The notes under the pieces: generated by a model
Databases searched by the model: none
What the model saw: only the letters and a program-made list of their open reading frames with translations
Told to the model about the DNA's origin: nothing
Source of the DNA: Lophium mytilinum
Taxonomy: Eukaryota; Ascomycota; Dothideomycetes; Mytilinidiales; Mytilinidiaceae
Direction of reading: 5' to 3'
Length of the DNA stretch: 64,000 nt
NCBI GenBank assembly: GCA_010093605.1
Contig: MU004183.1
Span: 2,655,436 to 2,719,435 of the forward strand
Made by a program: the position numbers and the translations under genes
Shown: positions 41,901 through 63,902 of the stretch, piece after piece
Layout: each line of letters opens with the position of its first letter
Numbering within the stretch: position 1 is the stretch's first letter

Positions 41901-43067
41901 GCCTTTACTATTATAAACCTTAATTACTAGGTATTTCTTTTCTAGGTACTATCTCTTTAGGTTACCCCCGGGCGTAATACTAGGCATATAGCAACACTAG
42001 ATAAACAGCTAGTAAATAGTTATTTAGCATCTCTTTATATCCGCCTTACGCAAATTACTACTAGATGTAGTAATTCTACTTAATTATCCGTACTATAGAA
42101 AAAAGAGTAGATAAATTAAAAAGACCCCTAGAATCCTATAACCTTATATAGCCTTAGGTTATTAGACTCCCTTAAGAAGTATAGCATAGCTTAGCTAAAG
42201 TTAGAGTACTTAGATTAGATAACAACGCCCCTATAACTTAGCCCTTAAGGCGTTAATTGACTGCAAGCCGGCCTTAGAAATTAATTCCAAGCTATATTTA
42301 CTAAAGCTTAGATCTAGGTATCTCTTACTAGAGAGGATATAGAGATGTAGTATCTATAGTATAGTATTATAGCATAGTACACGCTAGCTATTTAACACAA
42401 AAATAGGACTAAAGTGCAAAAAGATTAGCGATTAGCACCGCTATAGATGGGTAAGGCAGCTGCGCTTATTATTAAGGCATACTATACCAATATATATAAG
42501 CTTCTAAGTAGACAGTATATAGAAGAAGATAGAAATACTAAAATATAATAGGAGAGTAAAGAACTACGCAACTAATTTCTTAAGAGTATTCTAAATAGAT
42601 CTATAGTTACGCTTTATTCTAACATACTTATAAAGCTATATAGAAAGTTAGAACTTATAGTAAGCTACACCTATATATAGAATATAGCTAGAAATAGTAA
42701 TATAAATTATCTAAGGCACTTAACTAGACGCTAGATTAATTAAGTCTAGCCGCTATTTAACATTACAGATCCAGCTGCAGAAACTTAAAAATAGAACAAC
42801 AGTTCCTTCCGCATAAAATTGCGAAGATTAAATGCAATAATTAGAAACAAAGCGTTACTAAAAACAGTAGAATAATTCCTTAATAATCTATAAGTAAGAG
42901 CCGCCTTATTACTCTAGGTTCTTCTAAGATACAATAATAACAAAATTTTAACCACGCGTTAAGCTAAATAAAATAACTCTAAAGATACATAAGATAATAT
43001 TAGGGGAAGAGATGTAATTATAAATATATAGTAGATCTATATATAACTACTAAATAGCTACTACTAT
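38991..43067 (+). pseudogene. Unidentified large fossil ORF, 5' portion
   Basis: From about 40.8 kb to the Gypsy insertion at 43068 one plus-strand frame can be read for some 750 codons. Its only stops, apart from one TGA near 42260, are TAA and TAG at positions consistent with former Gln or Trp codons. Segments such as ITTRCSNST and NIYKLLSRQYIEEDRNTK look protein-like. The upstream part (39.1-40.2 kb) is Glu/Ala-rich and may belong to the same or another gene. I recognise no family. The frame resumes at 51625 beyond the retrotransposon. Confidence 0.45.
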
Positions 43068-43258
43068 TATTAGGGCTTAAGGTTAAAACGTTGGATTAAA
43101 TAGTATTAATATTAACAAAAGATAAATACAAGAGAGAAAGAGGTTCCTAGAACGGACGTTGTAATAACCTAAAGGGCGGAGCAACATTCGCCTATTCTAT
43201 AGAGCCTTCATTACGTGACCTCTAGTTACGTATTATGCGCAATTATATAGCTATAACA
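43068..43258 (-). repeat. 3' LTR of the minus-strand Gypsy element
   Basis: 191 bp. On the minus strand it starts TGTTATAGC and ends CCCTAATA (the terminal CA having become TA). It differs from the 5' LTR at about two dozen sites by my count, all transitions and many in CpA or TpG context. Confidence 0.92.
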
Positions 43259-43275
43259 CGTCTCCCCCCTCTAAA
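43259..43275 (-). other. Polypurine tract of the Gypsy element
   Basis: On the minus strand AGAGGGGGGAGACG lies immediately before the 3' LTR start. This is the expected second-strand priming site and fixes the orientation of the element. Confidence 0.85.
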
Positions 43276-43824
43276 GAAGCCCCCTAATTAAAGCCTTCGT
43301 AAGAGAGAGTTCTTTCTATGCTAGAGTATCTATAACCACTTAAATATCTATTAAATAAAGTGCCCAATCGTGTTACAACTTAAGTAAACAAAGGAAATAA
43401 ATTAATTTTGTAGAGGATCGCTTATCCTTCCTATTTTTCATGCAGCCTTCCGCAGCCTTACTATTTAGTGTAGTGTCTAACCGACTCTAACAGTTTGCCA
43501 GTATTACCTCGCGCAGTGCCATCTTATTATTCATTTAAACTGGGGCCGGCTATAACAGGGCCGTAAGAAGCTATATAGCCTTTATAGCTGCTAGCCTACT
43601 ACTAGGTACTTATAATAATCTGCGCTATTATATCGCATTTAATTATTGCGCACGTCCGCGGTTAGGCCTCCTTAATAAATTAATTTAACCGCCAGTCTAG
43701 TAATTAAGTTACGTAGCTTCCGCAGCGTTAGTTATACGGAGGTCCATAGCGGCGAGGATAGCAGCTAAGGTTAGTTTCTAGTCTAATAGTGGTATAAATA
43801 ACGGGTAAGGTTCTAGCTTCTTAG

Positions 43825-46800
43825 AGTAGTAGTAGTAGAAGTCTACTATAAGATATAGATAACTATCGGCATAATTATAGTTATTCTATTAGGGTTTATT
43901 ATCCCATCCAATAAACTTAATTTTATATTGCAGCATGCCCCTTTTCCCTATAGCAGGGTTAAGTTATCTTCTATTAAGACGGTAGTTAACAACCTCCTTA
44001 GCGTTACCTTTCTAATACGTTGGCGTTATCTATATAGGTAGAGGCTTAGAATTACGCTATCCTTTTATAGGAACTACGTTAGCCGGGTGGAGTAGCCAAG
44101 AATAGAAGATAGGGTGTAGGTTTTCTATACCCTTAGGTAGCTTAAGTTTATATGCGCTGCCGTTTTCATAGCTTTCTAGAACTTTAAAGGGGCCCAGCTT
44201 CTTAAAGTTAAGCTTCTTATTTAGGCGGTTCATTTTAATAAACTATCTATTAAGTATAACTTAATCGCCTAGATAATATATATATGCTAGTCGTCGTCCT
44301 GCGTTAGTATACTCTTTTTACTTAGCTTAGGCCCACTTAATCTCTATACAGAGAAAGGCGCAAAGCTTATCTATCCTAGCAACAAATTTGTCTGCAAGCT
44401 TTATAAGACGAACTGTTAGCGCGTTTGCATTATCGGGCAGTTATGCAGCTAGTATAGTGCCTGCGCTAGGAATATAGCCCTTAGTAGCTATAAATAGCGC
44501 TACTCCTATAGAGGCGTTCTTTAATAAGTTAGCCTTAAATTTAGCAACAGCAAGGAAGTTACACTAGTTATCTTGCTAGTAGTTAATGTATGCCCTAAGG
44601 TATTACTTCAAGCCTATGTTAGCAACTTCTGTTTATCCATCTATCTTAGAATAGAACGCTGTAGAAAGCTTTAGTTTTATTCCAATGCATTTACATAGGT
44701 GGGACTAGAAGGTTAATATAAATTATAATCCGCGATTAGATATAATAGACTCTAGGTATTCTTTAGTGCGCTAGACCTATTCTAGAAAGGCTTATGCTAC
44801 TTCTTTAGCCTCCGTTATTACCATTAGAATAAACTTGCGCATCTTAGAAAGTCTATTAATAACCACTATAACGTATTAGTAGTCTTATCCAGCTTGTATA
44901 CATTTAGGCAGTAGGCCAATAAAGTTAACCGTAAGGTTAGTCTAATATCGTTCAGGAATTAGCAGTAGTTTAAGAAAACCTTGCTTTACCTCTTATGCGT
45001 GCTTAATGCGATCACATAGCTAGCAGGCCTTAATATAACAGTCGACGTTAGAGGTTATTCGTGGCTAGAAATAGTACGTTGAGACACGGTCGTAAGTAGA
45101 CGTAGTTCTACTATAACTAACTAGCGGAGGCTTATATAGGCTTTTAATAATAGCTAATTAGAGTTCCTCTTTTATAGAAATGTATAAGCGGTCTTTTTAA
45201 ATAAAAATAAGGCCGTTATAAATTATACAGTCATGGAGTTTAAGCTTAACACTATAATTTTTAACTATGTCAGTAGGGAGGCGGCGTAGCTTAGCTCCGA
45301 TAGCGTCTTTAATAGCGTTGGCAACAGTGTTATTAGTAAGGGCCTCTCGTATACAATCCACAATGTCTTATTCTACGGCACCATTAGCAGGGTTATTCTA
45401 TAACTCCCCCTGCCTACCTAGTAGCTCCTATAGTTTATTATTAAGGTTACTCTAAGACTCCCCTTAATTAAGTTCTATTTTACTAAGGTTATATATTATT
45501 GCTACAAGGGAGACTACGTTATAAGTCACGCCGTTAGTTATAATGTTAGCTAGTTTAATAGCGTAATGCATTCCTAGTTTAAGATTATAGTCCTTTAAGA
45601 TGGTTTATTACTAAATCTTATAGCGCTTGTTGTTTTCGTCCGGTATATTACCTGGGCGCCTAGTTAGCAGGTCAGCTTTACTATTATCCTTGCCTGGCCT
45701 GTATATAATCTAGAAGTTAAACTTAGAGAGAAATTTAGCCTATCTAGCCTATTATTAGTTAAGTTGCTTAGTCTCTATAAAGTATTATAGGGTCCAGTAA
45801 TCTAAAAGGACTTTAATAGAATTACTATGCCCGTAGCCGGCAAGTTCTATGCGCCATTCTTTAAAGGCGCGGACGATTACTAGAAGTTCTTTATTATAGA
45901 TTTAATAATTAAGTTAAGCTGCGCTCATTTAGTAAGACATAAACGCGATAGGGCGGAGGACTCCGTTAGCTTACATTTAAGATAGTATAGCGGCCGTAAC
46001 AGTGTTAGATACATTACATTCCACCTACGTCTCTAGGTCTAGATTAAAATAAGCCATCTAAGAAGCGTTAACAAACGCTTGTTTTATTTATTTAAATAAA
46101 AAGTCTTTAGAGCTGCCTTCCTACTATAGAAAGGCAAACCACTTATAGACCTCAGCCCTAGTAAGTCTTATAAGGGGTCCTGCAATATTAGAATAGGCGA
46201 CAATAAATCGCTAGTAGAAATTATAGAAGCCTAGGAAAGCTTATATATTACAGAGGTTCCGTAGTTATAGCTAGTTAACTACTGTTTTAACTTTAGCTGG
46301 ATCTATTTTTAGGCCATTAATGCTAATAATAACGCCTAGATATTTAACTTCCTGTTTATAGAATTCACACTTAGTAATATTAAGGAAGAGGCCGGCCTTG
46401 CGGAGTCGCTGGAGAACCTTCTTAACGTGGCCTACGTGTTCCTCCAACGTCTTACTAAAGATAAGGATATTATTAAGATAGGCCGTGCAGAAATCATTAA
46501 GGTATTTAAGCAGAATATTATTAATAAAGGCCTAGAAGGTCGCTGGAGCGTTACACAGGCCAAAAGGCAAGACAGTGAATTCAAATAGGCTATATCTTGT
46601 AAGAAAAGCCGTATATTTCTTATCTCCTTCTCATATTCTAATGGCATTAAAAGCGGCTATAACGTCAAACTTCGTATAATACCTAGCGTGTTTTAATAGC
46701 GCAAGTGTGTCTTTTATAGCCGGCGGAACATTACAAGCTTTAATTGTAACAGCGTTAAGGCCTTAATAGTCTACGTAAATGCAAAGGCCTCCTCCTAGTT

Positions 46801-49800
46801 TGCGGACAATAATAATAGGAGCGGCGTATTAACTATTACTTTTCCTAATATATCCTTTGCCATACATCTCGTTAATAAACGTTTTAACAACTAGCGTTTC
46901 GTCTCGTAAGAGCCTATAGACTTTTCAGGCTAGGGCCTTAGTTCCTAGCTTAATATTAATGTAGTGGTTAATATTAGTACCATCCTTTACTTTACGCCGG
47001 GGTAGAAGCTTATTAGCTTCCTTTAGGTCCTATATATTAAGAAAGCTATAGTATTCTATAGGTACCAGTACTTTAAGTGCATCACAAGTTATTAGCTTGC
47101 GTTCCATTTTCTTAAAGAACTTTTGTTAGTTATCTTTTAACATTGCGTAGAGGCTAATAGCTGCAAGGTTATTAGTAAAGTTAGCTGGACCCATAACCTT
47201 GTTAGGTTTGTACGGGCGTCCATTAGCGTGCGCTTAGTCTTCCGCTTTTTTATTAGCGAGCGCTAGTTCAAAGTATTTAGGCCAGATGTAAATAGTGTTC
47301 TCTTCTAGTAACTATTGTAAATTATACAAGCACTCGTCGCTAGACACGGCGTTAATATCGAGCGCTTTAAAGGCCGCGAGCTAGGCGTCGAGTTTCTACT
47401 AAAATAGGCGTTTACCGGTGCGGGCTATAGGGTCCTTTAACTAAACGTAGACAGGTTTATAGTTAACTAGGCATTAAGAACAGTAGTAGTCTAAATCTAG
47501 CTATATTATTTAGGTACTAAACTTTATATAAGCGTTGTGCATTATAAGCCAGCCCATGCTAAGAATAATATTATAGCCCTTAAGGTTATAGATTAGAGCC
47601 TAGAACTTATTATAGTGGCCTTTAATCTACATAGTAACTTTAGCTGCCTTATTAATAACTAATATAGAACTGTTTAGCAGCTTAACGTTGCATAGAGTGG
47701 CTTTACAGACGTTAAGCTTATACTATTTTATAAAGCTTATAGAAACGAATATAAAGCCGCCGCATCTAGAGTCTATAAGAACAGTTAATTTAACCGTTCC
47801 GGTTAAAGTAATAATCTTGCAGTTAAAGTCCATTTGCTTGCTAGAAAGAGAAGTAAGTCTAATAGCGCATGCGGAGAGCTTAATATTAGGTGGTTTTAGA
47901 GAAGGTAGCTTAAGCTCTTAAATACGTGCAAGAACTTAAGCTAGCGTGTCTTCTAACTATCTCTAACGACGACTTTCATTAGAGATTAAGCATTTTCCAA
48001 GTAGTCGGAATGGACGGCTTTATTATTGTCGTCTTAATCTTAGTCATCCTCGTATTTATACTTATATTAGTACTCCTAATCGCTACCGTAGTTAAACGCG
48101 TTAAGTTCTATACTATTAATGCCAGCAGCAGCAAGGCGCTTATCGCGCTAAGCCTCTAATATAGTCTTTCCAGCTATGGCGCATTTAGGGTTACTAGCTC
48201 GGTGGTTCTTCTTAAAGCAGCCGAAGTAACGTCCTTTCTTACTAAGACGCAGGCGGACGTGCGGTGGGACGCTCAGCAGCGGAACAGTAGTAGTCTTCTT
48301 AACTATAATGCAATTATTAGTCTTAGTAATAGACTACTTACGTTGGGCGCGGTTTAAATCTTAACGGCTATCCTGCGTATGTGCGTTATTTAAGCGGCGT
48401 ACTAAAATTTATGCTGCTAGAAGCTTATCCTTAAGTCGCTTTTTACGCTAAATACAATGTTAGTCTTTATATAGGATATTATCTTTTACCTAATACTATA
48501 TAGGTAGGTTAAAGTTAATATAGGTAGATAGATCTATGCGCAGTATTTCCTTAAGATAGCGGTAACAAGTTACAAGGCCGTTGTTAATCTTACTGTACTT
48601 TAGCCCGTTAAGAACAACGTCAAGACGTTATAGAAAGTCAGACGTCTTCTCGTTAGAACGCTATTTTATGCCCTAGCTATTAAGCTAATTAAGAAGGCAA
48701 TTACAACGCACGGCATTACTCTCTTAGAATGTGGCGTCTAGGTCCTAGGTAAGTTTCTTAAGTAAACGATACGGGTTAGTAGATATAAGGAGTCCTTAAT
48801 CTTCTACAACTTTATATGCGCGCCCCTTATAATAACTAACAGCAAGCTGGATTTAAGTTATAGTAGTGGGGTAAGTCTACTAGTCTACTTAGACTAAGTA
48901 GATTAGGTAGTTCTTCTAGGCTGCGTATGCTATAGCTCCTAATTTAAAGTCCCACAGGTATGTATATTTAGGGCGAGGGCCCTATTATTATCTATATTAA
49001 GGATAGATAGGTCCGTATACCTATAGCTAAGTAAAGCTATCTAGTTAGCTTAGGTTTAGGTTATCTCTACCTCTACCTCCACCTCTACCTGTGGTGAAGT
49101 ATTAGCCTAAAACGCAATTACATTAGAAATTATCTAGGTTTAGAGTGTATAGTCCTGTTAGTAGGGGAGAAGAGTAATTATCTACGGAATTATAGTTAGA
49201 TAGATGTCCGTATAGGTCCGCATACGTGTTGCTAGGTCATTCTACGGGCAAGTTGTAACGAAGTTAGGCTTTAAGCTAAGTAATTCAGTCTAAGGCTTAT
49301 TAGTGTATAACATCTAGCTTGTTAAGCTAAGCTATCTAAGCTTAGAACTAGGCGTGCTTCTTATCCCGCCTACAACGCACTTATACTAAGTCTATCTTTA
49401 AGGCTTCTAGTATATTGCTAAGGGTGCAAACTTATATATAAAGCTTAGAGAGTTTACCGTTAGTAAGTAAATATTTCTTGTTTAGCTCTTTAATAGTAGT
49501 GTTGGCAGTATCTTATTCTCGGGTGGCGACGTTTATTCTATGCTTATAGTTGTTGCTATCTTAGTAAGCTAGCATAATGCAGTTCTACTACTATTTAGGT
49601 GTAAGTTAGACGTCTTTAATAAGGTCTTATGGACCTTGTAGTTTATATTACTAGTAGACGCCGTCTCCATAGCGCATCTTAAAGATAGAGCCATTAGCGC
49701 GCTGCGCGATTGCAAGACATAACCGCTAGCAATCCTCCGCGCGTATTATAGTATAGTGCCTACTACTCTATTCTATGCCCGCTACTTACTGGGCTAGGTC

Positions 49801-50652
49801 GGAAGTATTAAGTCCCGTAATGGATTTAACGCGGGTAGATTAGTATTATAACGGAGACATATTAGGTAAGAGAATACTATAAATAGGTAGTATTCTTAGA
49901 TATTTAGGGTCGCGCGACTAAAGGTTAGATTTAGAAACAGTGTTATAATATGCCGTAGCTTTAGGGGTGTTAATAGTAACGCCTTAATAGGCTGTCTCGA
50001 GCTAATTAACTTCGTCGTCTGCGTTATTGCTAAACTGTCGTTCCTCCTCTTATTAGTTATATTCATCGGCCGAATTAAAGTTAGAGAAAGAATCCTTACT
50101 ATAGGCGGCAGTTATATTATTAAGGCCGGTAGTAGTATCCTTAAGTCCTTTAGGTAAATTAAAGTCGCCCGGTATATAGCTACTAACGCGGGAGAGTAGA
50201 AGTATGGTTTCCTCTACTATAGTTGCTGCTAGAGGGGCTAAGGTAATTAGTAGGGGCTTGCCTATAGTACTAAACTTAGTCTAATAATATTACAGATTAG
50301 CGGGTGTTACTAGAGGAGCTGGTCCAATAAATAGAACTAATTAAGAAGTGGCAGCTAGTGTCTATAACTAGGATTAAGTCGCGCCTTAGAAGGGTGGAAT
50401 TAATAGTTAAATAAGAGAAGGCTGTAGGCCATAATTAATCTATATTATATTATTATTATTATCTCCTATAAGAAGGTGCTATAGATTTAGGGCGCCTTCT
50501 TAATGTAACATAATGCTAATGCGGCGGGGGTTAATAGGAATGCTATTGGCGTCGCTAAATAGGCGTCTAGTAGTGGAGCGTCCACTAGAGACCGAGTTGC
50601 TAAACTGTAGGGCTTTAGCGCGGTTAAAAGTATAGCGGTTAGAGTTAGCCAT
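43825..50652 (-). pseudogene. RIP-mutated gag-pol polyprotein of the Gypsy element
   Basis: Starts with MANSNRYTFNRAKALQF at 50652. At 48165-48235 is a zinc-knuckle-like segment in which the first Cys has become Tyr (RYFGC then KKNHRASNPKC). Protease flank YNIILSMGWL lies at 47531-47575. RT spans about 46050-46700, with [25 protein letters not shown] and YLNNILIFS, where both catalytic Asp read as Asn. RNase H follows at 45.6-46.0 kb and the integrase core at 44.3-45.1 kb, with SIISNRG near its second acidic residue. At 43825-43937 is a chromodomain-like YKIKFIGWDNKP. Gln and Trp codons are frequently TAA or TAG. Frame is otherwise well kept. Confidence 0.88.
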
Positions 50653-51428
50653 GCAAGGAGGTAAAAAAGTTAGTGTAGGAGGAAGAAAACTTAAAGGGGC
50701 GAGGTGTTGAATTTATATATGAGCCGTTGACAAATTTTAGTTATTTACTACGAGCACCGGCGGCGTAGAAGGCTTAAGAAACTAGCGCCTATTACAGTTA
50801 GTCGCGGCGTTATTAGAGGAGCTGTAGTAAATAATAATATTAGGTGGTCTATTTATAAAACGGGTAGTATATAGAAAATAGGTAGTCTATAGATATTTAT
50901 TCTATAACGCTAAGCATGCATATAGGCTAGCTGTTATTAATACTAAGCTTTCTAGGTGTTAGTCTCCATGTGGGCATAGCAATTAATTAGTAACACTAGG
51001 CGCGCGCACGCGCTATTATTAATACTAAGCTTTCCGGGCATTAGTCTCTATACGGTAATAGCAAAGTAGATAAAAGAAAGAGTTGCAGAGCCGTTAAAGT
51101 AATAGACAAGAATTAGTAAGAACTTTCTAGAGTGCTGCTACTACCCCTCTATTATGGGGGCTTATTATAAGCGCTGCCATAGTTATAAGGTCTATTATCC
51201 AGCTTTGCGCACAATAGCTAGATTACTTTATTAGGGGCCCGCGGCGCTGCTAATAGGTGTACTACATTATTAAGTATAGTCTTTATTAGGGGTCCGCGAC
51301 GCTGCTAATAGTCGCTATATTAGTAGGTATAAGTATACTACAGCTTATTATAAGAGCGCACTCTATTACGGAAAATTTTCTAGGGGTTGCTTCTGTCGCT
51401 CCCGGAAGCTAGGAGGGTATTTATCTTA

Positions 51429-51619
51429 TATTAGGGCTCAAGGTTGGAACATTAGATTAAATAGTATTAATATTAACAAAAGATAAATATAAGAGAGAAA
51501 GAGGTTCCTAGGACGGACATTATAATAATCTAAAGGGCGGAGTAACGTTTGCCCGTTCCGCAGAGCCTCCATTACATAACCTCTAGTTACGTGTTATGCG
51601 CAATTATATGGCCATAACA
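51429..51619 (-). repeat. 5' LTR of the minus-strand Gypsy element
   Basis: 191 bp, paired with 43068-43258. On the minus strand it starts TGTTATGGCC. It retains more CpA/TpG than its partner, so the two LTRs were mutated to different degrees. Confidence 0.92.
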
Positions 51620-51624
51620 ACTAT

Positions 51625-52080
51625 AAGGTAGCCTAACTAAGCTAATATATTAAAGAACGGGCTTAAGGGGGGGCAGTTAACCTTAGTATAGACGTAGTTG
51701 CAAAGAAAGTATAGAATATAACCTAGGGAAGCCCAGGAAAGTTAAAGATAATAATAATAGAGGATAATATTATAGGCCCTAGGGGTTAAGTTAATCTAAA
51801 ATATATCTAGCTTAGATTTAAGCACTATACACTAAATAGCCCAAGGGCTTATTTAGGTAGGATTCTAATAATTAAAGAATTCCGGAATTATTTAGCAATA
51901 TAGAAGAAGCAAGAGGGGGATATAAGTAGTTAGTTATTAGATAAAGAGTATAAGTATAAAGAGAGTTTAGGTAACTATAGCTTAGAAATAGAGGACTTAG
52001 AGGACTCAGGGCAAGAGGCCTAGAAGAATAAGGCTTAAGTAGAAGAGTTTTAAGGAGCATATAGATTTAAGTATTAATAG
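51625..52080 (+). pseudogene. Unidentified large fossil ORF, 3' portion
   Basis: When one copy of the 5-bp target duplication and the retrotransposon are set aside, the plus-strand frame ending at 43067 continues at 51625 with no shift. It runs about 150 codons to near 52078. The end is acidic and Lys-rich (LEIEDLEDSGQEAQKNK). Stops inside it are TAA or TAG only. No family recognised. Confidence 0.45.
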
Positions 52081-52154
52081 GTAGACTAGTAGGGGCAGCG
52101 TTATAAAGAAGAATTATTAATAAGGAAGATAGTAAAGTAATTAGTATAAGATAT

Positions 52155-52191
52155 AAAGGGCGTTAGTAGAAAGGCTTTTAGCTAGGCTCTT
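52155..52191. repeat. Near-palindromic 39-bp-family element
   Basis: Left arm AAAGGGCGTTAGTAGAAAG, centre G; the right arm is decayed (TAGCTAGGCTCTTA). Confidence 0.75.
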
Positions 52192-52280
52192 ATATAGTAC
52201 GCAAATACTTATCTAGTAGGTGCGTAGCGGTAATATATATAAGAAGAGAGGCAATAATAGGCGTGCTTAATATAAGTAGT

Positions 52281-52319
52281 AAAGGGCCCTAGTAGAAAGG
52301 CTTTCTAGCAAGACCCTTA
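52281..52319. repeat. Near-palindromic 39-bp-family element
   Basis: Left arm AAAGGGCCCTAGTAGAAAG is a consensus match; centre G, right arm CTTTCTAGCAAGACCCTTA. Confidence 0.85.
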
Positions 52320-52932
52320 TACTATAGGCAAATAGTTATATAATAACGCGCAATGTTCTATTAACCTATCTTAGCATAGTGCTATATTACTAGAACTAGG
52401 TAATATATAGTGTAGTATTGCAGATTAACCGTAAACGCTTACATATTAGTAAAATTAAGTAAAACGCCGATATATTTACACCTATAATATTTTAACCTTA
52501 TATAATACACAGCTATTATATTAACCTTAAGAGTTAACTTAAGCAGTTTACTGTTAAAGGCTTAGCGTCTTAGCGGCCAGCGGCTATTAGCCCGGCCGCC
52601 TATAAACTTATCCGCTACCTAGTAGCTTTAACTTTCTTACTTCTATACTAATCTCTCCTTCTATACTACTGCACCCCTATTACTTCTACTTATCTAGCTA
52701 CCTGCAGAACGGTTGCGCGCTAGTTTCTTACTTGCTAGACAATAGTTAGCAGCTTTCTAGCTACGTTAGAGCCGCAATTAGCTTATTTTAGGTGTGTTTT
52801 TAGCTAGCGGTTAAGCCTTTTAGTAAGTTTACTATCTAGTAGATAAAATCAAGTTACGTTATAGCTAATTCTGCTAATAGGTTTATTCCATCGCAATTTC
52901 TCTAAGAGTAGAGTAAGGTAAGCGTATTATAA

Positions 52933-52969
52933 GGATTATTATAGGAAGGCTTTCTACTAGAGCCCTTTA
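52933..52969. repeat. Near-palindromic 39-bp-family element
   Basis: Left arm decayed; core GGAAGGCTTTCTACTAGAGC followed by CCTTTA. Confidence 0.75.
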
Positions 52970-53062
52970 CTAGTCTTAGTAGATTAGTCTACCTTAATTT
53001 TAAAGATGCGGCGGCAGGAAATATTAAGAAAATAATAATACTAAAAATACCCGGCATAGTAT

Positions 53063-53101
53063 AAAGGGTCTTAGTAGAAAGCCTTTCTACTAGGGCCCTT
53101 T
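53063..53101. repeat. Near-palindromic 39-bp-family element (one of the best copies)
   Basis: AAAGGGTCTTAGTAGAAAG, centre C, then CTTTCTACTAGGGCCCTTT. The arms pair at all but two positions. Confidence 0.9.
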
Positions 53102-54084
53102 ACCTGCCTCTATTCTTCTATTATTTAAAATAAGCTAATACATTAATAGGCTAGCTATAAATACCTTAAGTAATAGGGACCCTAGTAAAGTAGTAGTAAA
53201 GGTTGCATCCCTATATATATTACCTGCAACTAACCTAGTAGATAGCTATAAGAAATAATCTACTTCTTCTAAAGTACTAGAAGATCTAAATTCTACCTTC
53301 CTACTAGTTACTAAATTAGGGGTTAATACCTATAGCGATTTAAAGCGCAATTAGCCGGCCACTATAATAGATCTAGAGACGCTTACATTAGTAAATAGCA
53401 AAGTAGTTTATCTAGATAGTAATAACTATAGTAATAACTCTAATGTCCCTAAGAACTCTAATAAAAAGTAAGAGAAGATTTAAGCGCTAGTTACTAGCAG
53501 TAGGAGAGATAAAGAGTTAGAGAAGTTATAGGCCTTAGTAAACACGCTGTATACTAGTAGAATAAAGTTAGCTAAGCTTTATAGTTAAATAAAAGCAGAA
53601 CTTAAAGTAATTCTAGCTAAGCCTAATTTCTAAGCAATTTAGAATAAGTATAAGGATAGGTATTTAGACCTAAAGCGCGCTATATATAGTTAGGATTAAG
53701 AGGCCAGTTTTACTACTATCCTAAACGCTTTTAAGACTAGCGAGTTATATAATCTACAGCAATATACTACTCCTTAGCCTAAGATAGATAACTATAAACC
53801 CGTAGATTAGGCAGCTTAATTTATTAGTTAATACTTTAATTACTACTAGAAGCGGTTTAGTAGGTTTTTATATAACCGCGCTAATATTACTAATAATAAA
53901 GCGCTTAGAATCTTCTTTAAATTAAAGAAAAATATAGAATTTAAGAGTAGCCCGTTTTAAGCCAGTAGAACCGCCTATACTAAGAACTAAATTAAGATAT
54001 AGAATGTTCTTTAAAAAACAAAGCTTAGTCTAGCACCGGCACCTAAGACCCCGGCCAAAACCATTACTTATAGCAGTAAGAATA

Positions 54085-54114
54085 TTAACAGGAAGCCTTT
54101 CTATTAAGGCCCTT
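54085..54114. repeat. Near-palindromic 39-bp-family element inside the SNF2 frame
   Basis: AACAGGAAGCCTTTCTATTA then AGGCCCTT. Read in the helicase frame it gives NRKPFY then GPS. Confidence 0.75.
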
Positions 54115-54769
54115 CTAGGCCTCCCTATTAGCAGTCGCCCTCTTATTTTACTAAGGAGGAACTCGCGGCCATTAATATAGAGGTTAACGTAGACAACCCT
54201 ATCTAGGGGTTATCTAAAGAGGAAATTGCTGCAAACCTAGTTAATAAGGAGAAAGGCAATATTAATATTACTAGCGCTAAGTACATTACCGGCACTATAA
54301 AATAGGAGCTTAAGTTAGTAATTACGCATGCTAAGCACACTAGAGTAATAATTAACCGGAACTTGTTAAAGTTTCAATATAACGCATATTAGGTAATTAG
54401 ATAGATAGCAGGAGATTTTATATATACCGTTAAATAGCACCTAAATATGCGCGCTGCAGATCTAAATAAGGATAAGTACGCTAATCTAGACGGTATTAAA
54501 CATGCCTAAAATATAAAGGCTAATATAAGGGCTACTACTATTAATGTAAAGGATATTATCCCCTTTACTATACTAACCGCGGCAGATCTTACAACGTAGA
54601 GTATACTCCGCCTTCTAATAACTAATAAAGCCTATTAGCTAGATAACCTTAAAGAAGCAATAAAGGCCCTACATATTTATAACTATTAGGAACCCCGCCT
54701 TATTATAATAAATAGCAATATTTACTTAAGGTAGTAGTAGATTACCGGGGCTTACTATATATACTATAT

Positions 54770-54800
54770 TATATAGAAAGGCTTTCTTAGTAGGGCTTTA
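54770..54800. repeat. Near-palindromic 39-bp-family element directly before helicase motif I
   Basis: TAGAAAGGCTTTCTTAGTAG followed by GGCTTTA; centre G orientation. It ends at the base before the motif I segment. Confidence 0.7.
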
Positions 54801-54874
54801 ATTATAGATAAGGTTAGTATTAGAAAGACATTTTTAATAGCTACCCTTATTAGATATATAAGTAATTTCTCTTT

Positions 54875-54911
54875 AAAGGGTGTTAATAGAAAGCCTTTCT
54901 ACTACCCCCCT
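54875..54911. repeat. Near-palindromic 39-bp-family element inside the SNF2 frame
   Basis: AAAGGGTGTTAATAGAAAG, centre C, CTTTCTACTACCCCCC. Motif I before it and motif II after it share one frame, so it does not disturb reading. Confidence 0.85.
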
Positions 54912-55688
54912 AATAGTTTCTCTTAGCATCTACTAATTTAATTATAGCTTATTGCTAAGCGCCAGCGCAAAGTTGCAGATAAGAAAGACCCCGGGCCGGC
55001 AAAGCCCTTTCTTTTTCTTATGCCTCCCGTTTTAGTACACTAAATAGCGAATAAACTTGCAAAGTTTAGTTCTAAACTTAAGCTCTATATCTATTTATTA
55101 AAGGGCTAAGTTACTTTCTATAGCACTACGTTTCTATATAACACCTTAACTAGGGACTATCCCTTATTTAATACTAAAAACGAGGCGAATACTAAGAGTA
55201 TTATAATCGCTAGCTATTAGGTAATAGCCGGTTAGTATAGTCCCCAGCCCGCATTAAAGTAGTATAGCGATAATAATCTTACTAAGCTAAAGAACTAGGT
55301 TAAATATTACCTAAGCTCTACCTAGCCCGGTCTTTTAAGTAGCTATTTTAACGTCTAATTTATAGATAAGTACTAGCTTATTAAAAGCAACTAAGTAAAC
55401 CTCTACCTAACCGCGTTATAGCTTTACTTAGACTTTACTATACTCTATAGTAGGACCCCGCTATATATAGGCATTACTAATATACCTACTTATATATCTT
55501 TTATAGAACTAAGAGATAAGCATCTATAATTCCGCACGTACCGCTTAAAACCCGGTAAAGCTAAGTTTATTCCAGGTACTAATAATCCGTTTAAGCTTTC
55601 TAATAACTATTTAGGTATAATTTTCTAGTATACACGCAAGGCTTTTAAAAATTTTATTCTACCTTTATTTAACCCGTAAGTTATTACA

Positions 55689-55727
55689 TAAAGGGCCCTA
55701 GCAGAAAGGCTTCTAGCCAGGGCCCTT
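55689..55727. repeat. Near-palindromic 39-bp-family element
   Basis: AAAGGGCCCTAGCAGAAAG, centre G, CTTCTAGCCAGGGCCCTTA. It keeps CAG and CCAG that other copies show as TAG, which helps infer the unmutated form. Confidence 0.85.
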
Positions 55728-57187
55728 ATCTCTCCTCTTATTTACTTTAATTTTCTAACATTTCTCTAGGATTATATAGGGGCTTTATTTACGCTTAATT
55801 TTTAGTAAGTGCATAATTGCTTACTTATACCCTTCTACATGCCTAAATAATTCTACTAATCCTGCTACCCGAATTAGAGGATTACTTCCGCGGTTAGTTA
55901 CGCGAGTAATTAAGCTATAGCCTATAAAACTAGGCCATATTATCTATACTAATAAATCGCTAAGCTACCTTAAGTTATTAATAGTTCCTACTAAGAACTG
56001 CGTAGGCTAGCGCACCTATACATTTAACGCATGCTCCGTGCATGCTCTTAACCTTATAAGTACTGCGCTATTTTTAGTCTACTCTAAGCGCGCTATAATA
56101 GCATATCTGCAAGAGGAGGTCTTAAATTTAGAGGGCAACAAGATTAAGAACAGCCCGAAAATTATTCCTCTTAAGAATAATGGCGGTTACTAGTTACAGG
56201 AAATAGACATTTTGCGAGGCATAATAAAGTAAATTGCCCGGAATAAGAATGTCTAAACTAACTCTAATTAGAAAGACTTTAAAGTAAAGTCCGCATTCTT
56301 TTATTATATTATCGCCCTTTTTATCTATAATGCCCCTAAAGTAGCTGCACTACTATACTATTTAGCTAACAACGTTATTAAGCGTATAGAGAAGGTTATT
56401 ATCTAGACTAACTACCTAGATAAGTAAATAATTCTCGCTAAGATTATTAACTATTACAAAATAGATGCTTATATATTAGCCTCCAATCTCTCTACTACTA
56501 ACCGGGACAACCTTATCTTAGTATTTAACAACCCTAACTCTAAAGTAAAGATCCTTATTACTAGTTACTAGGCTAATAGAGCTAGGCTTAATCTATAGTC
56601 TACTTACTATAATATATATCTTTTTAACCCTACAGGCTCTATTTAGATTAAGGAGCAGGCGATAGCGCGTTTATATAGAATTAGCTAGAAGTTTACTATT
56701 ATAGTAACCGCGTTCTTTATCTAGAACACATTTAATGCCTTTACTCTCTCGCGCCAGGTATAGATAGCGCTTCCTGGTCTTGCTACTGCGTTAAACACTA
56801 ACTAGATTAAGGTAGAGGGGACCTCTAAGAAAAAGCTAACCCTAGATAGCTAGTATGCGTAGGTAACCTATAATAATAAGAGTATCGCACCCCGCCTTAT
56901 TACAGGTAAAATAGATATTTTAAATATGCTAGTGGAATTATATATTAAGCGCTTTAACTTCCTATAAGATATTCTTATATTTCTAATAACTCTTATATAA
57001 GGTAATATAACTTTTTAGTCTAGTAGGTTTAGCAATAAGTTCTAAAAAGAACAAGCGTACGAATTTACTAAATTAGAATTAGAAGAAGAGTAGAAGAAGG
57101 GTGCAAGTAGAGCGCCTAAGAAACCGCGTGTTAATAAGCCAGGTTTAAGGCTTAAGCGTTGTCCTGCAAGCAGTAAGTTCGCCCTTA

Positions 57188-57223
57188 TAGGTTCTAGCAG
57201 GAAGGCTTTCTACTAGAGCCCTA
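57188..57223. repeat. Near-palindromic 39-bp-family element
   Basis: TAGGTTCTAGCAGGAAGGC then TTTCTACTAGAGCCCTAC. Confidence 0.8.
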
Positions 57224-57439
57224 CTTACCTCTTTATAATTTGCTAATCTGTATTTTATAGTAAAAGCCACCCTAAAGCTAAAGCTAAAAACGCTAGAGTA
57301 ATAAAATAGTAAAGCTTTAAAGTAGAAGCGCAAAGCTAGTACTACACTAGCGGCTGCCGTTAAGAAGTGTAAGCCTAACCCTAAGTCTACTATTATAGTT
57401 AAAGACTTAGATTCTACTAAATCTAATATGCCTACCCCT

Positions 57440-57475
57440 ATAAAGAGCGCCACTAGAAAGGCTTATGCCCCTTTT
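57440..57475. repeat. Diverged 39-bp-family element (weak)
   Basis: TAAAGAGCGCCACTAGAAAG then GCTTATGCCCCTTTTA; spacing fits but the right arm is poor. Confidence 0.4.
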
Positions 57476-57642
57476 ATCTATTAATATAGGCCAGAGCATA
57501 ACCCTTTACATTAAGTACCCGCTATTTTTAGTAATATAAACGGCGACAACTCTTTTAGTAGGCTAAATAGTAATAACTCTAAAGGTAAAAAGTATAAGAA
57601 TAATACTTTATTCCTTATAAAGTATATAGATAAGAATTTATC

Positions 57643-57681
57643 CTAGGGCCTTTTTAGAAAGCCTTTCTACTAGGGCCCTTT
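57643..57681. repeat. Near-palindromic 39-bp-family element
   Basis: TAGGGCCTTTTTAGAAAG, centre C, CTTTCTACTAGGGCCCTTTA. The right arm is a perfect consensus match. Confidence 0.88.
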
Positions 57682-57729
57682 AGTATCGCCTATTATATTA
57701 CTTAAGTGCTAACTATTATAGCAGCTCCT

Positions 57730-58545
57730 ACTTCCGCCCGTTAACCCACTTTAACTCTACCTTCTAGCCCTCTTAGCACCTTTAATAGACGCCTTATTAG
57801 GACCCCTTCTATAGACCCCGTCCCGTCGCCTAATATATAGAAGAAGAGGTAGCGCAAAATATCTACTATCTCCTTACAGGATTCTATAGATAATCTAGTT
57901 TTTTATTTACTACTAAAAGCTAACATTAATATAGATAATAAGCAGAATAAGAAGAATATTAAAACCCCCGACGTTAATATAGAGAACGTCCTATCTAAGA
58001 CTAATAAGTAAAATAGGGGGTATCTTAATAATTACCTGGATTTTACTACTACGCTATCTAAAGTTGCCTTTAAGTGTAACAGCAACTATAGTAGTAACTT
58101 AGACAACCCGCCAGAATTTATAGAAGGGGCCTTGCAGCCAACCCTAAAGACTATATTCTCTAGCAATACTAATAAGGGTTAGAAGCACTAAGACGTAAAA
58201 AAGAAGCCCACTATAAAGAAGAATAAAGCGGCTAAGAAAGACTCTATATCTAAATCCCTTATATATTATCTATATAAGTATATAATAGAGAAAGAGATTA
58301 CTAAGTAGCGCCCTTAGCGCGAAAGGAAGGCTACTAAGAAGAAAGCTACCGCGCAGAAGTCTGCAAACTCTACTAGACCGAAAATAGACCTACGCAGGCG
58401 GAAGAATAATCCTAATATTAGCTAACCGCCCGCGGCATTAGGTGCAAATACTAACCCTAATAGTAAAGAGAATAGCAGTAAATTAAAGAGAACTAGCATA
58501 GCGCTAGAGAAGTCTAATAGTAAGGTATAACTAGTAGAGTCTTTA
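57730..58545 (+). pseudogene. Fossil Lys/Arg-rich coding segment downstream of the helicase
   Basis: A RIP-mutated frame with strongly basic composition, for example ERKATKKKATA and KIDLRRRKNN at about 58320-58410, following an Asn/Asp-rich stretch. It could be the nucleic-acid-binding tail of the SNF2-like protein or a separate gene. No family is recognised. Confidence 0.4.
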
Positions 58546-58571
58546 TAAGAAGGCTTTCTATAGGGGCCCTA
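58541..58571. repeat. Near-palindromic 39-bp-family element (shortened)
   Basis: TTATAAGAAGGCTTTCTATA followed by GGGGCCCTAG; the left outer arm is lost. Confidence 0.7.
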
Positions 58572-61018
58572 GCCCTACTTTTTAGATTTAATTTAGCATC
58601 TCTTAATATCTTTTTCTTTTTCTTTCTAATAGTTCTAATTAGGACTACTTTCCTTACTATTAGTTTGCACCTACTTACTTAGTACTACTAACTTTTTACT
58701 ATTCTAATTTCTTGCTTGCGTTCTATTCCCTACCCTCTAATAGTTAGCACTACTCTATAGTAGTAGTACACTTTATACCCTTAAAATCTCCTAGTTTATA
58801 TTTAGCCTCTAGATAGCGGCTTACTTAACTATAGAATATAGCGTAATATTTACTACTATAACTATACCTTACGTATCTTATATATAATATAATATTTATT
58901 TTATTTATCTATATTATAGGGGGCGGTCTTATCCGCCGTAGTTTATATAGTTAGAGAGGGTAATTACATTCTAATGCTGCTCTATTGTATCTACACTATT
59001 AGCATGTGCTCCCTATCTTTTTTATAGTAAAGAATCTACTATTATATACCCTATAATTTAACCCTCTTTGCTAATATTAATTACACGGCTAGGCTAAGTC
59101 CTCTCTATAGACCCTATCTATTAATACGCTGTATATAACTTTATTCTATCTATAGTTTTCTAAAGCGTATATTATTGCATAATACCTAAACTAACTAGAA
59201 GGAGGGTTATTTACATATATTGTTGTTAAGTCTTTAGCGTACTAGGCGGCGGAAGGCAATTTAGGTGTCGCAGTTATACTTTCTAGTTTATCGGCGATAT
59301 ATTTAAACCTACTTATTATTAGTAAGGATAGTAATTCTTAAGGGGTTACAGTCTTACCGTTTATCGCTTTTAATATAACTTTCCTTCTTCTTATAGTTAT
59401 AAATAGTCTCTATATTATAAATAGAACTACTCTTTTATTCTAGTATTTTCCTTTACTTCTATTCTTATAGCCGTCTTAATAAGCGCTTTAGCCGTATAAG
59501 CTTCCTCCTTGCAACTAAATCTAGAGTGGTATTTACAACCTCGCGCCTAGACAGAGTATTAGGCGTAGTAAGGAAAGAAGCTAACCGCTCTATTAGAATA
59601 TATATATTAGGTAGACGTAGATATATCTACCCCTACTAAACATTATCCTCGGCGTTTAGAGTTGCTATGCTGCTGCACGTTAACCTTAGTATACCGGGCT
59701 ATATTTTATATACTTTAGCCTAGTTTAGGGTTGCAGCCGTCTCTATATTAGGTTAAGCCGCTTCTTATCTTATAAATATCCGCCGGAACGCTCTAGAAAG
59801 GACGTATATAGTATACTAATTAAGACTTATATATAGTATTATGCGTGGGCTGCTACTATACTATAAGGGGTAGGTAGTAGTTAGAAAAAGGTTTAATACG
59901 CTAGTTTCTATTAATCTTAGTATATTACGTGCTAACCTCTTATATTATACCTATACTTATAATTAACCTTTAGAGGTTAACTCTATATACTATATATAAA
60001 TAGCAGCTCTAAGAGTTTTATTTTATTACTATACTATATATATATTTTACCTTAGGCGGGACTAGTAGGTCCCTATAACGTATAGTTTACGTAACTATAC
60101 CCTGCGTCGCTTCAGCGCCCGCCCGATTTACTCTTCCTCTCTTTTCTTACTCCTTTAGCTTGTTCCTCTCTACACTATAGCTATAGGTAAACTAACAGCT
60201 AGAACTAGCATAGAAGAGACTCTTAATTATATTTAAAGCACTTTAGAGAGATAGATTAATAGTACATAAAGTTTTAAAGCTGGTAGGCTGTAGGAACACC
60301 TATATAACTAACTTAGAAGAGTAGCACGCTAAGAATAGCACCGCCACAACAGGCACACTAATAGGCTCGGGTACTATTACTTAGAACCCTCTTCTTAACC
60401 CTAATATACCTAGCAATACCGCAGATCTCGCCGCATAAAACGCCAGAAAGAAGTCCTTATTATTTATTTCTAAAATAACTTCTAAGCTAGCTAATATAGA
60501 CTAACTCTATACAACTAAACTGCTTACCGCGGAGGATACTACTAACCCTACCTACATCTATGCCTAGAGAGAAGCACTTTTTATAACTATCTAGAATTAA
60601 AACGGAGGTTCCCTCTTTAGTAATAGCCTAGGCACGCCTACTAATACTACTTTTAATATGCAGCCTACTATAACTAAGTCTTAAACTCTCTATAACTATA
60701 CTAACCCCCTATCCTAAGCTACTAGAAATAGCGCCCTACCTTTTAAGTCTAATATTAATATTAAGCCTAAACTAGCCAATAAAGTTAATATAAAGATTAA
60801 GCCTAGTATTAAGATTAAGCCCGGCCTTATAAGTAGCCCGGATACTACAAGTTTTTTAAGAATAATTCTAAGAATAAGGAGCTTCTACGCTTACAGATTA
60901 ATATAGAAGAGAAGAAGGCAAGGGCTATATAAATAAGGTTTAAGGCTATAGCTAGAGAGTAGAAGCAGTAGGGCCTAATCTACTCCTAAATCTAAACCTT
61001 AAATAGAAGTAGCAGCGC
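58572..61018. other. RIP-mutated sequence, unassigned
   Basis: About 2.4 kb with no element or gene I can name. From 60.1 to 61.0 kb a plus-strand frame has Asn/Thr/Pro-rich then Glu/Arg-rich composition, suggesting another decayed ORF. No LTRs or tandem arrays seen. Confidence 0.45.
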
Positions 61019-61169
61019 CCTAACCTATTTCTATCTCTACGCGCTTATTAGTAAATACCTAACTCTTTATCTAGCGCTACCAGGCCCTTACTATCTTCTA
61101 ACCTATCTTCTCCTTTAATAGTAACGCGTCTCTACCCTTCTAGAACTGCACCCTAGCCCTCCACGCTAC
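61019..61169 (+). repeat. About 150-bp direct repeat, left copy
   Basis: Matches 62109-62260. Both copies read CCTAACCTAT, then CTCTA and GCGCTTATTAG or ACGCTTATTAG, and include CTTTATCTAGCGCT. They differ mainly by transitions. Confidence 0.8.
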
Positions 61170-62108
61170 CTACGCGGAAATTATCTAATAGGCTTTACTC
61201 TTTTACTTTATCTTACTCTTATTTTCTTCTTTAATAGCTTTATCTCTACTCTTCTACTATTAGTCTTATTTTCTTCTACTATAGTAGAGCCTCTAGACCT
61301 AACTCCTAGTAACGGCACTAGTTTACCCTTTACTACTATAGTAAAACCTAAAGATTTATCTTCCATTACTACTACTACCGCGTTACTAACTTGCAAGCCC
61401 TAAAATTGCGGACATTATAGAAAGAAAGCCACTCTAAGGTGCAGTCGCTGCGCCAGCGTTATCTACTGCAATGCGGATTATTAAAAGGCTAACTAGAAAT
61501 TATCTAATGCGCCGCCTTCTTATATAAAGGTTATTATACTATAATAAGACTTCTATACTTTAGCTTAAATTTACTAATAGATAGCAAAGAGCGTAAAGTT
61601 TAGCGGATTATTTAAGGGGTAGAAATTAAAACGGGTTCCGGCTCTATTATATAACTATAAGCTGCGATATACTTTACCTCTTATAAACTTAGCCCGCTAC
61701 ACATAAATATAGAGTCTCTCCTACCTAAGTGCTAAAGAATAACTTCTAGTAGAGTAGCTACAGCTACTCTAGCTTATATAGATTAAACTAGCACTCTACC
61801 TTAGCCTTCTTAGGCTAGCCTTTAACCTTATATATATACTAGCGTAGGCAGTAATAATTATTCTTATTCTTCTTTTATACTAAGCTTAATTACTACACCG
61901 CTTTCTAGCTTTAAGAAGAGAAAGATGGAGGTTACAACTCCCCTTAGTAGTTAGAACTCTACCTACGCCCCGCCATTAATAGATTAGACACGCGGAGGCT
62001 CTATTCTAGGTGCCCTAAGCGTGCTATAAAATCTACTTAGCATTAATAAGTTTAAAAAGTAGCATAAAGCCGCCGTTACCGCCGCTAGAGCCTAAGCCTA
62101 ATCTACTC

Positions 62109-62260
62109 CCTAACCTATCCCTATCTCTATACGCTTATTAGCAAACACCCAGCTCTTTATCTAGCGCTGCCAGGCCCTCGCTATTTCCTAGCCTATCTTC
62201 TTATTTAATAGTGACGCCTTTCTACCCTTCTAAAACTACACTCTAACCCTCTACGCCGCC
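62109..62260 (+). repeat. About 150-bp direct repeat, right copy
   Basis: Second copy, keeping a few more CA dinucleotides (GCAAACACCCAG). The pair lies 1.09 kb apart and suggests duplication of an exon-like segment. Confidence 0.8.
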
Positions 62261-62274
62261 GGCTCCCCCTACTC

Positions 62275-62760
62275 CTTTATAACTACTAGCCCCTGCACCT
62301 TAAAGAAAGAAGCTAAAGAAGCCGCCTCTACTCTTAGCCTTACCCTCCTCTCCTCTCTTAAAGCCTTAGGTACAGTCTCTACCCTAAGTAAAAGTAAAAA
62401 ATACACTCTAACTCTAACTTCTACTACTTCTACCCCTAAAGAACTCTAAGAAAACTTTACTAGTATTCTTATAGAATTCTACTAAGCCTCTAAAATCCCT
62501 ATTCTAACCTTTGCTAAGTTTAAAACCAGCACCTACTTCTCTACTAAGCTATTGCTAGCCTTATACTACTAGTTAGACACCCCCTTTAGCGGCCGCGCTA
62601 TACTCTACCTATTAAAGAAAGCGGCTTATATAGCTATAGTAAGAAAGGCGGTACTCTAGCTATATATAGAGATAGCTACCCGCTATATATAAGCCCGCGT
62701 CTATAAAGAAGTAGTAGAAGACAGTAAAAGGTTCTAAGAACACCGCGGTGTAGCTGCTAG
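62275..62760 (+). pseudogene. Telomere-proximal fossil ORF, unidentified
   Basis: One plus-strand frame of about 160 codons interrupted only by TAA or TAG at Gln/Trp-like positions. Readable parts include LKKEAKEAASTLSLTLLSSL, LDTPFSGRAILYLLKKAA and IEIATRYI, suggesting a helical protein. It continues downstream into Gly/Ala- and Lys/Glu-rich low complexity to about 63070. It lies about 1 kb from the telomere. No family recognised. Confidence 0.45.
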
Positions 62761-63208
62761 GTAGTGCGGCGGCGCGGGTGCTAGCGCTAGCAAGCGAGCT
62801 AGGGCTACCGTAGCTAGAGTATTAGTAGGCGGCGCTAAGTGCGCTAGCGCCGGGGCTATCTATAGTAAGTAGTTTATTCCCAGGGAGTAGAGTAGGTAGG
62901 GAGGATAGAGTAGTAGTAACAGTAAGATATATAGTTAGAAAGAAGGCGGCAAGAAAGAAGTATGCGCGGTTAATAGTAATAGAGTTAGAAGAAGTATTAG
63001 AGAGGAGGAAGGGGGTGTTAGAAAAGGTATTAAAGAAGGGAAAGAGGAAGGTAGAGATAAGAAAGAAGGATAAGAACTATTATTCTTATTAGGAGTATAG
63101 AGAGACATATAATAGGAACTTATTTATACTTACTTAATTTAGGTTATAGTAGGGGAAGCATATTAGAAGTATAGTAAATAGAAAGTATAATTACTTCCGC
63201 AGTAATAT

Positions 63209-63245
63209 AAGGGTTACTATAGAAAGGCTTCCTATAAAAGCTCTA
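63209..63245. repeat. Near-palindromic 39-bp-family element (decayed)
   Basis: AAGGGTTACTATAGAAAGGC then TTCCTATAAAAGCTCTAT. Confidence 0.7.
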
Positions 63246-63302
63246 TAAAAAATATTAGTATAATATATATATATAAAAAAGATATATAAATTTATAATTA
63301 AA

Positions 63303-63335
63303 AGAATCTCTATAGAAAGCCTTCTAGTAAGAACA
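63303..63335. repeat. Near-palindromic 39-bp-family element (decayed)
   Basis: AGAATCTCTATAGAAAGCC then TTCTAGTAAGAAC; one base is lost at the centre. Confidence 0.6.
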
Positions 63336-63410
63336 CTATACTATAATTTAAAATATTTCTATAATATACATTAAAATAGATATATACTTAATAGAATTTA
63401 AAGAAGTATT

Positions 63411-63785
63411 TTATACTATATACTAGTATATAGACATATATTACGCCTAATAAGACTAATAGAAATATTTCTATACTATATACTAATATGTAAGTATAGG
63501 GTACGCCTAATAAAGCCTTAATAAATGTTTCTATAGTATATACTAAGATAAACGTATATAGTACACCTAATAAAATTTTACTAAATATTTCTATACTATA
63601 CGCTTAATAGTAGGTATATAGTACGCGTCTAGGGATTTTAGAGATACTTCTATACTATACGCTTACTAGTAGGTATATAGTACGCGTTTAGGGATTTTAG
63701 TAGATGCTTCTATACTGTACGCTTACTAGTAGGTATACAGTACACATAACAAAATTTTACTCAATGTTTCTATACTGTACTACTG
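63411..63785 (+). repeat. 60-bp subtelomeric tandem array, about six units
   Basis: Units of 59-60 bp sharing TTTCTATACTATAC, then a TAGTAGGTATATAGTACGC-type segment and AATTTTA or GGATTTTA. The leftmost units are TA-converted, while the last two keep CA and TG (ACTGTAC, CAGTACAC, CTCAATG). The array ends 15 bp before the telomere. Confidence 0.88.
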
Positions 63786-63798
63786 GTCGCCCGCTAGC

Positions 63799-63816
63799 AC
63801 AGGGTTAGGGTTAGGG

Positions 63817-63857
<41 letters not shown>

Positions 63858-63859
63858 GG

Positions 63860-63900
<41 letters not shown>

Positions 63901-63902
63901 GG

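Follow-up and report, generated by a model that had tools for sequence, protein, structure and literature searches.

Near-palindromes within predicted introns of a subtelomeric SNF2/Rad54-type helicase gene in Lophium mytilinum

Introduction

The origin of new introns is an open question, and one chromosome end of the ascomycete Lophium mytilinum appears to bear on it. The window analysed here, a stretch of 64,000 nucleotides at the right end of the 2.72-Mb contig C3, carries near-palindromes of 39 bp that are packed towards the telomere, which raises the question of what these elements are and how they came to recur at this place. An earlier note had described them as a dispersed family, with mitochondrial GC clusters and double-hairpin elements as the closest analogies. 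The explanation favoured here, to which we assign a probability of roughly 55%, is that one SNF2/Rad54-like helicase gene holds a family of short spliceosomal introns of which the palindromes form the conserved core, and that this family is old, introner-like and private to a subtelomeric unit. The computation on which this builds showed a palindrome family, its confinement to the unit, an enrichment of palindromes in candidate introns on the gene strand, a narrow spacing to the splice donors and an agreement between intron lengths and reading frames. If true, a single subtelomeric gene whose introns have nothing but a palindrome in common would preserve, in compact form, a natural record of how introns multiplied within a selfish element, and the intron family would be private to that one element.

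The palindrome family and its setting

Searching with the 39-mer at up to 12 mismatches returned 11 sites in the window, starting at 31419, 38142, 52155, 52281, 52930, 53063, 54077, 54875, 55690, 57186 and 57643, and none in 100 trials on a first-order Markov sequence built from the window between 24 and 63.8 kb, where no match had fewer than 13 mismatches. With a related pattern, 11 matches were found, compared with 0.11 in shuffled sequence. The exact core RRAAGSCTTYY is present 16 times, with 15 occurrences in 24-63.8 kb (0.71 expected) and one, at 11722, in the ordinary part of the window; between 51.9 and 58.7 kb it is found 11 times against 0.18 expected. These counts confirm the reported family as real and place it far beyond chance. 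The core adds four positions to the 39-mer search (54776, 58548, 63222 and 63315). That at 54776 is probably incidental, since its arms are weak and it overlaps the helicase ATP-binding motif, and setting it aside leaves ten sites in 52.1-58.6 kb, not the eleven first reported. The outlying members reported at 31.4, 38.1, 63.2 and 63.3 kb were located at 31419, 38142, 63222 and 63315, and both G and C occur as the central letter, as originally described.

At several places the TAG of the window corresponds to CAG in less mutated copies on other chromosome ends, which supports the suggestion that the original arm was richer in GC; a C-to-T change of the type caused by repeat-induced point mutation (RIP) likely lies behind the difference. 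RIP is known from filamentous ascomycetes, and the window from about 24 kb on is AT-rich and, past 24200, has no stop-to-stop frame that reaches 120 codons, both of which would be expected after RIP. TTAGGG repeats close the window (63801-64000), and the palindrome-rich region is a true subtelomere, in line with the first description. The palindromes can be read at several places as a peptide of the form KG-x-x-RK-(A/P); this was rejected as a general cause because those at 55690 and 58534 lie in other frames and the conserved DNA boxes ignore codon positions.

Palindromes within predicted introns of a helicase gene

The least mutated copy of the unit in which the gene lies is at the right end of contig C21 (C21R; loci L024 and L025). 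With stops read through, this copy matches Helicase_C over its cut-off (E 1.9e-5) and SNF2-rel_dom under its own (E 5.5e-4). In a PDB search, lobe 2 found the Rad54-family helicase 1z5z (E 1.5e-7), while lobe 1 found no helicase; the gene copy of the window itself scores sub-threshold for Helicase_C (15.5 vs 23.5). By their Pfam domains, the two lobes lie in different frames, lobe 1 in 0 and lobe 2 in 1. No intact helicase copy is present among the matches listed, which comprise stop-ridden unit copies and weak matches to other SNF2-type genes, and the copies seen would be pseudogenes left by RIP.

The frame with the fewest stops, followed in three copies, changes from 0 to 1, from 1 to 2 and from 2 to 1 near 55.7, 57.2 and 57.7 kb, each time at a palindrome, and is unchanged at 54.9 kb. 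The introns predicted around these four palindromes (90, 94, 88 and 92 nt, in order of position) have lengths of 0, 1, 1 and 2 modulo 3, which agree with the frame change required at each site. Their signals read GTAAGT...CTAAC...CTAG in the 94-nt intron, GTAAGT...GCTAAT...TATAG in the 88-nt intron and GTAAGA...GCTAAC...TATAG in the 92-nt intron, the donor of the last, at 57630, being ATAAGA in the window and in the copy C11L. The boundaries were drawn with the frames already known; a blind scan offers identical ones together with alternative acceptors, at 54926 for the intron starting at 54858 (69 nt, also 0 modulo 3) and at 55805 for the one starting at 55676 (130 nt, also 1 modulo 3). An intron offered by the scan at 54076-54192, around the palindrome at 54077, was rejected, as the helicase frame runs through it.

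The distance between donor and palindrome varies little. A GTRAG motif lies 12-14 nt upstream of the palindrome at five of 13 sites, with a chance of 0.0079 per site and a nominal P of 3.7e-8, the offset having been chosen after looking and before the test. A sixth donor, at 54858, lies 17 nt upstream. In computational terms, the splice signals that introners would carry are thus found as a GTRAG donor 12-17 nt upstream at 6/13 sites, and as complete signals with a fitting frame at four.

The blind scan required a GTRAG or GTATG donor, a YTRAY branch site and a YAG acceptor within 50-130 nt, present in at least two copies. It returned 33 donors on the + strand, nine of which enclose a palindrome (seven different palindromes), and 24 on the - strand, where the single one enclosing a palindrome corresponds to chance level. 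Seven of 12 palindromes fall within scanned + strand introns, compared with a mean of 1.1 under random placement in the unit (P 3.5e-5; the 12 sites leave aside 63301, which is outside the range used). Striking out 54077 as exonic leaves six of 12 (P 3e-4). Restricted to 52.0-58.6 kb, the ten sites give P 5.5e-5 for seven and P 6e-4 for six, and a smaller randomization run for seven gave P 1e-5 in the unit and 5e-5 in 52.0-58.6 kb. Furthermore, removing all four introns yields one long frame and raises the SNF2-rel_dom score from 16.0 to 21.9 bits. Lobe 1 alone scores 18.8 bits unspliced and 24.1 bits with 54858-54947 removed; with an equal length removed at -10, +10 and +20 codons it scores 13.6, 22.7 and 18.1 bits, the predicted boundary being the best of the four tried.

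A family confined to one subtelomeric unit

In the window the unit consists of 37127-43067 and of the sequence from 51617 to the telomere. Its main blocks are also present on the ends of C3, C5, C8, C9, C11, C13 and C21, and partial copies occur on C4, the right end of C5 and C17, in both cases with approximately 90-94% identity to the window. A search of the whole genome for the arm with up to three mismatches found 87 places (42 + 45), compared with ten for the reversed pattern, and a second pattern found 112 places per strand versus six in its control. By hand count, 81 of the 87 arm matches lie inside copies of this unit of about 18 kb, at matching places. The other six, on C2, C4, C5, C7, C13 and C19, have two to three mismatches each and do not exceed the control level of ten; those on C2 and C19 could sit near a chromosome end. 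The palindromes are therefore not found in many unrelated genes, as introners would be. Spacings between sites are identical in different copies (802 and 4580 bp on C3 and C11, for instance), and each palindrome recurs at the equivalent place in four to nine aligned copies per site. The exceptions are the copy C5L, which ends inside the palindrome at 52930-52968, and the site at 63301, where two copies have a deletion removing the end of the right arm.

As the sites in the unit copies are homologous, the multiplicity across chromosomes reflects duplication of the unit. Within the unit the palindromes occupy a dozen mutually unrelated places, and their spread over these is older than the multiplication of the unit. 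No empty site was seen among the aligned copies, which are duplicates of one unit (four to nine per site), nor were target-site duplications seen at the palindromes when judged by eye. The term dispersed thus describes the family inside one repeat unit and does not extend to the genome, where there is no excess elsewhere. Genome matches restricted to homologous positions of a single repeat family, which the earlier note had named as evidence against its proposal, are largely what was found at the level of the genome, while the dozen unrelated places stand at the level of the unit. This corrects the view of the palindromes as a free family of the nuclear genome.

Weighing the explanations

In the favoured explanation each intron would consist of a GTRAG donor, 12-17 nt, the 39-nt near-palindrome and then a branch site and a YAG acceptor, and the introns would formerly have been spliced. 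One palindromic intron would have been copied to several places of the gene in an introner-like gain, and in these copies decay would have spared nothing but the splice signals and the palindrome; the unit would afterwards have multiplied at chromosome ends and been mutated by RIP, probably in this order. The palindrome may have aided copying or bound a protein. A bolder version is that a nuclear palindromic element creates introns, or settles in them, at a set distance from the donor, and that it spread within one gene of a mobile unit that caps chromosome ends until all recognisable introns there carried it; this we put forward tentatively, as a possibility clearly weaker than the intron family itself.

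Several observations weigh against palindromic introns as the explanation. The introns are predicted by computation from sequence alone, and 24 of the 33 scanned + strand donors enclose no palindrome. The donor of the intron at 54858..54947 reads GTAAG in C5L and C9L (two of nine copies) and AT in the other seven; for lobe 1, the shift of +10 codons (22.7 bits) nearly matches the predicted boundary (24.1 bits), and SNF2-rel_dom stays under its cut-off of 24.9 bits after splicing (21.9 to 24.1 bits in C21R). The best-frame plot is noisy, with 150-base bins at 53.65-54.1, 56.5, 56.65 and 56.95 kb off the expected frame. The palindrome at 54077 looks exonic, no convincing intron surrounds those at 38142, 52155, 52281, 63208 and 63301, and a donor is lacking at 53063. 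Downstream of the palindrome only two of 15 intron pairs are alike at P < 0.05, and 13 of 15 are no better than shuffles, so that the near-identity along the whole intron expected of introners is absent and copying of whole introns is not established (the stretch of 7 to 13 nt from donor to palindrome was compared visually). Finally, of six introns, a clear advantage in folding over shuffles is seen in one, and a marginal advantage in another.

The most substantial rival is a mobile mini-element of palindromic form, comparable in its behaviour to the GC clusters of mitochondria or the palindromic elements of Rickettsia. It would have inserted itself at many points of the ancestral unit and persisted in introns, in non-coding sequence or in frame within exons, where its 39 bp would be free of stops if the TAGs had been CAG or TGG before RIP. 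It stays a live rival because of the exonic-looking palindrome at 54077, through which the helicase frame reads, the five unassigned sites and the acceptor-only site at 53063; the dozen unrelated places, which seem to include exons, introns and non-coding sequence, the occurrence of both central bases and the palindrome as the sole shared part of the introns also speak for it. Random insertion would not be expected to produce a near-fixed donor distance at six sites, or four introns of nearly equal length. The rest of the genome holds no excess of copies, and neither a target-site duplication (by eye) nor an empty site in the aligned copies was seen, and on balance we consider this origin rather unlikely.

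The conservation of the palindrome bears on two further explanations. Transversions cluster at arm positions 7-12 and avoid the outer box AAGGG (positions 3-14, P 0.0025), and the arms vary independently, as might be the case for a putative binding site of a dimeric protein, either a regulator or a recombinase and perhaps encoded by the unit, that is kept by selection. This is improbable as the whole explanation: it leaves the spacing to the splice donors unaccounted for, just 12 related sites were used, and the conservation of the inner box comes partly from the method and cannot be judged, because the sites were found by that box. A hairpin in the intron RNA, maintained because it draws the donor towards the branch site, would fit the position of the palindrome between these two signals, and the best folds of three candidate introns reach -25.9, -26.1 and -28.9 kcal/mol. 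Arm pairing argues otherwise, with 81.8% of cells paired versus 80.6% in shuffles (109 of 500 shuffles as high) and no covariation (a score reached by 129 of 500 shuffles), and the z scores of the six introns (-2.96, -1.96 with 9/200, 0.10, 0.17, -1.50 and -1.44) lie above -2 in five. With no covariation in the arms and one intron of six folding clearly better, a hairpin under selection is unsupported, and we regard it as very improbable. Known RNA families gave one chance-like match, at 53035-53108 (E 0.037; 22.5 bits vs a gathering score of 39).

Features of the unit and its surroundings

Table 1. Positions of the palindromes, the predicted introns, the helicase gene and the subtelomeric unit in the window
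Feature	Position	Strand	Remarks
Palindrome	31419..31457	none	in a second, partial unit copy (30405-32176)
Subtelomeric unit	37127..63800	none	about 18.1 kb minus the insertion 43068-51619; holds every listed site but 31419
Palindrome	38142..38180	none	inner part of the unit; no convincing intron
Palindrome	52155..52193	none	5' of the helicase gene; intron signals not convincing
Palindrome	52281..52319	none	branch/acceptor-like signal on the downstream side only; no convincing intron
Palindrome	52930..52968	none	in candidate intron; donor GTRAG at 52918 (12 nt upstream); 3' end 53005 or 53017
Palindrome	53063..53101	none	copy C21R with acceptor-like CTGACACATTAACAG downstream; no clear donor
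RIP-mutated SNF2/Rad54-type helicase gene	53150..58519	+	putative start; five exons after removal of four predicted introns
Palindrome	54077..54115	none	in frame in helicase exon (KDVNRKPSR...)
Predicted intron, 90 nt	54858..54947	+	palindrome 54875-54913; between SNF2 motifs I and Ia; 0 modulo 3
Predicted intron, 94 nt	55676..55769	+	palindrome 55690-55728; GTAAGT in 9/9 copies; frame 0 to 1
Predicted intron, 88 nt	57173..57260	+	palindrome 57186-57224; GTAAGT in 8/8 copies; frame 1 to 2
Predicted intron, 92 nt	57630..57721	+	palindrome 57643-57681; GTAAGA in 6/8 copies; frame 2 to 1
Candidate intron, gene 3' end	58520..58642	+	palindrome 58534-58572; GTAAGG in 6/7 copies; 3' end uncertain
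Weak palindrome	63208..63246	none	near the telomere; no convincing intron
Weaker palindrome	63301..63339	none	near the telomere; no convincing intron

The unit appears, from its sequence, to be an element added to broken chromosome ends. Its centromere-side edge is fixed (37127 and 30405 in the window; L009-L028) and lies near TTATAGGGGCTAGAGGGTTAGGGTTAGG with telomere-like repeats at the 13 places examined; the sequence beyond this edge differs between places, the orientation of the unit is constant, and units cut short (C5L and C8L) are capped directly by a new unit. Palindromes as breakpoints were considered for these truncations and rejected: C5L ends inside the one at 52930-52968, but the end of C8L at 57915 does not fall in a palindrome. 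In the window the unit is interrupted by an insertion of 8.55 kb (43068-51619), with terminal direct repeats of 191 bp that are 87% alike, which looks like a long terminal repeat element; the aligned copies are uninterrupted there, and related sequence occurs elsewhere in C11L and C3L. A six-frame Pfam search of the inner part of the copy C21R found no match, and a MYND-finger-like match in this copy, on the + strand near 61.4 kb (window ~61400-61500), scores 21.2 against a curated cut-off of 22.7 bits. Directly inside the telomere lies an array of tandem repeats of about 60 bp (63398-63780), and the telomere itself contains TTTAGGG variants some 43 nt apart within the TTAGGG repeats. Four exact TTAGGG repeats at 155768-155791 of contig C3, far from the contig end, form an interstitial telomere-like stretch, and the AT-rich part of the window holds a 296-bp sequence in two tandem copies that are 95% alike (26919-27510).

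Comparison with known systems

Mitochondrial GC clusters, double-hairpin elements and Rickettsia palindromic elements are short palindromes found at many places, some of them within genes. To our knowledge, these mitochondrial or bacterial elements are not tied to splice donors, and the analogy with GC clusters is not the best fit for palindromes that occur preferentially within candidate spliceosomal introns and keep an almost constant spacing to the donor. Among the titles and opening abstract lines listed from an open-access library, none pointed to a nuclear family of fungal palindromes, or to a family of subtelomeric introns, of comparable form.

The predicted palindrome introns are regarded here as a variant related to known copied introns, and are not filed as introners. 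They resemble fungal introner-like elements, which PMC4457414 describes as multi-copy spliceosomal introns that become indistinguishable from ordinary introns with time. Fungal introners are described in PMC9860276 as lacking target-site duplications and terminal inverted repeats, with reverse splicing as a proposed route; unlike introners in general as presented there, the shared part is here the inverted repeat itself, inside the intron and in one unit only. The introners of the dinoflagellate Amoebophrya likewise recur and contain inverted repeats for which hairpins are predicted, although, according to PMC7789003, those repeats join both intron ends, direct repeats are present and the splice sites are mostly non-canonical.

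The nearest published case found is that of the near-palindromic introns of the Hypoxylaceae, one of which, 93 nt long, has an imperfect inverted repeat around a central palindrome (PMC8469720). Similar in size to the introns predicted here, these are, according to that paper, copied fungal spliceosomal introns that are largely self-complementary around the palindrome and lack short flanking duplications. They are alike along the intron, occupy many gene positions and have expression support, whereas here only an off-centre palindrome of 39 nt is shared, in one subtelomeric unit known from its sequence. An inverted repeat spanning the intron ends, which marks the symmetrical introns of the Hypoxylaceae, is not seen in the candidate introns: their palindrome lies off-centre, 12-17 nt after the donor, and they fold without a common end-to-end pairing.

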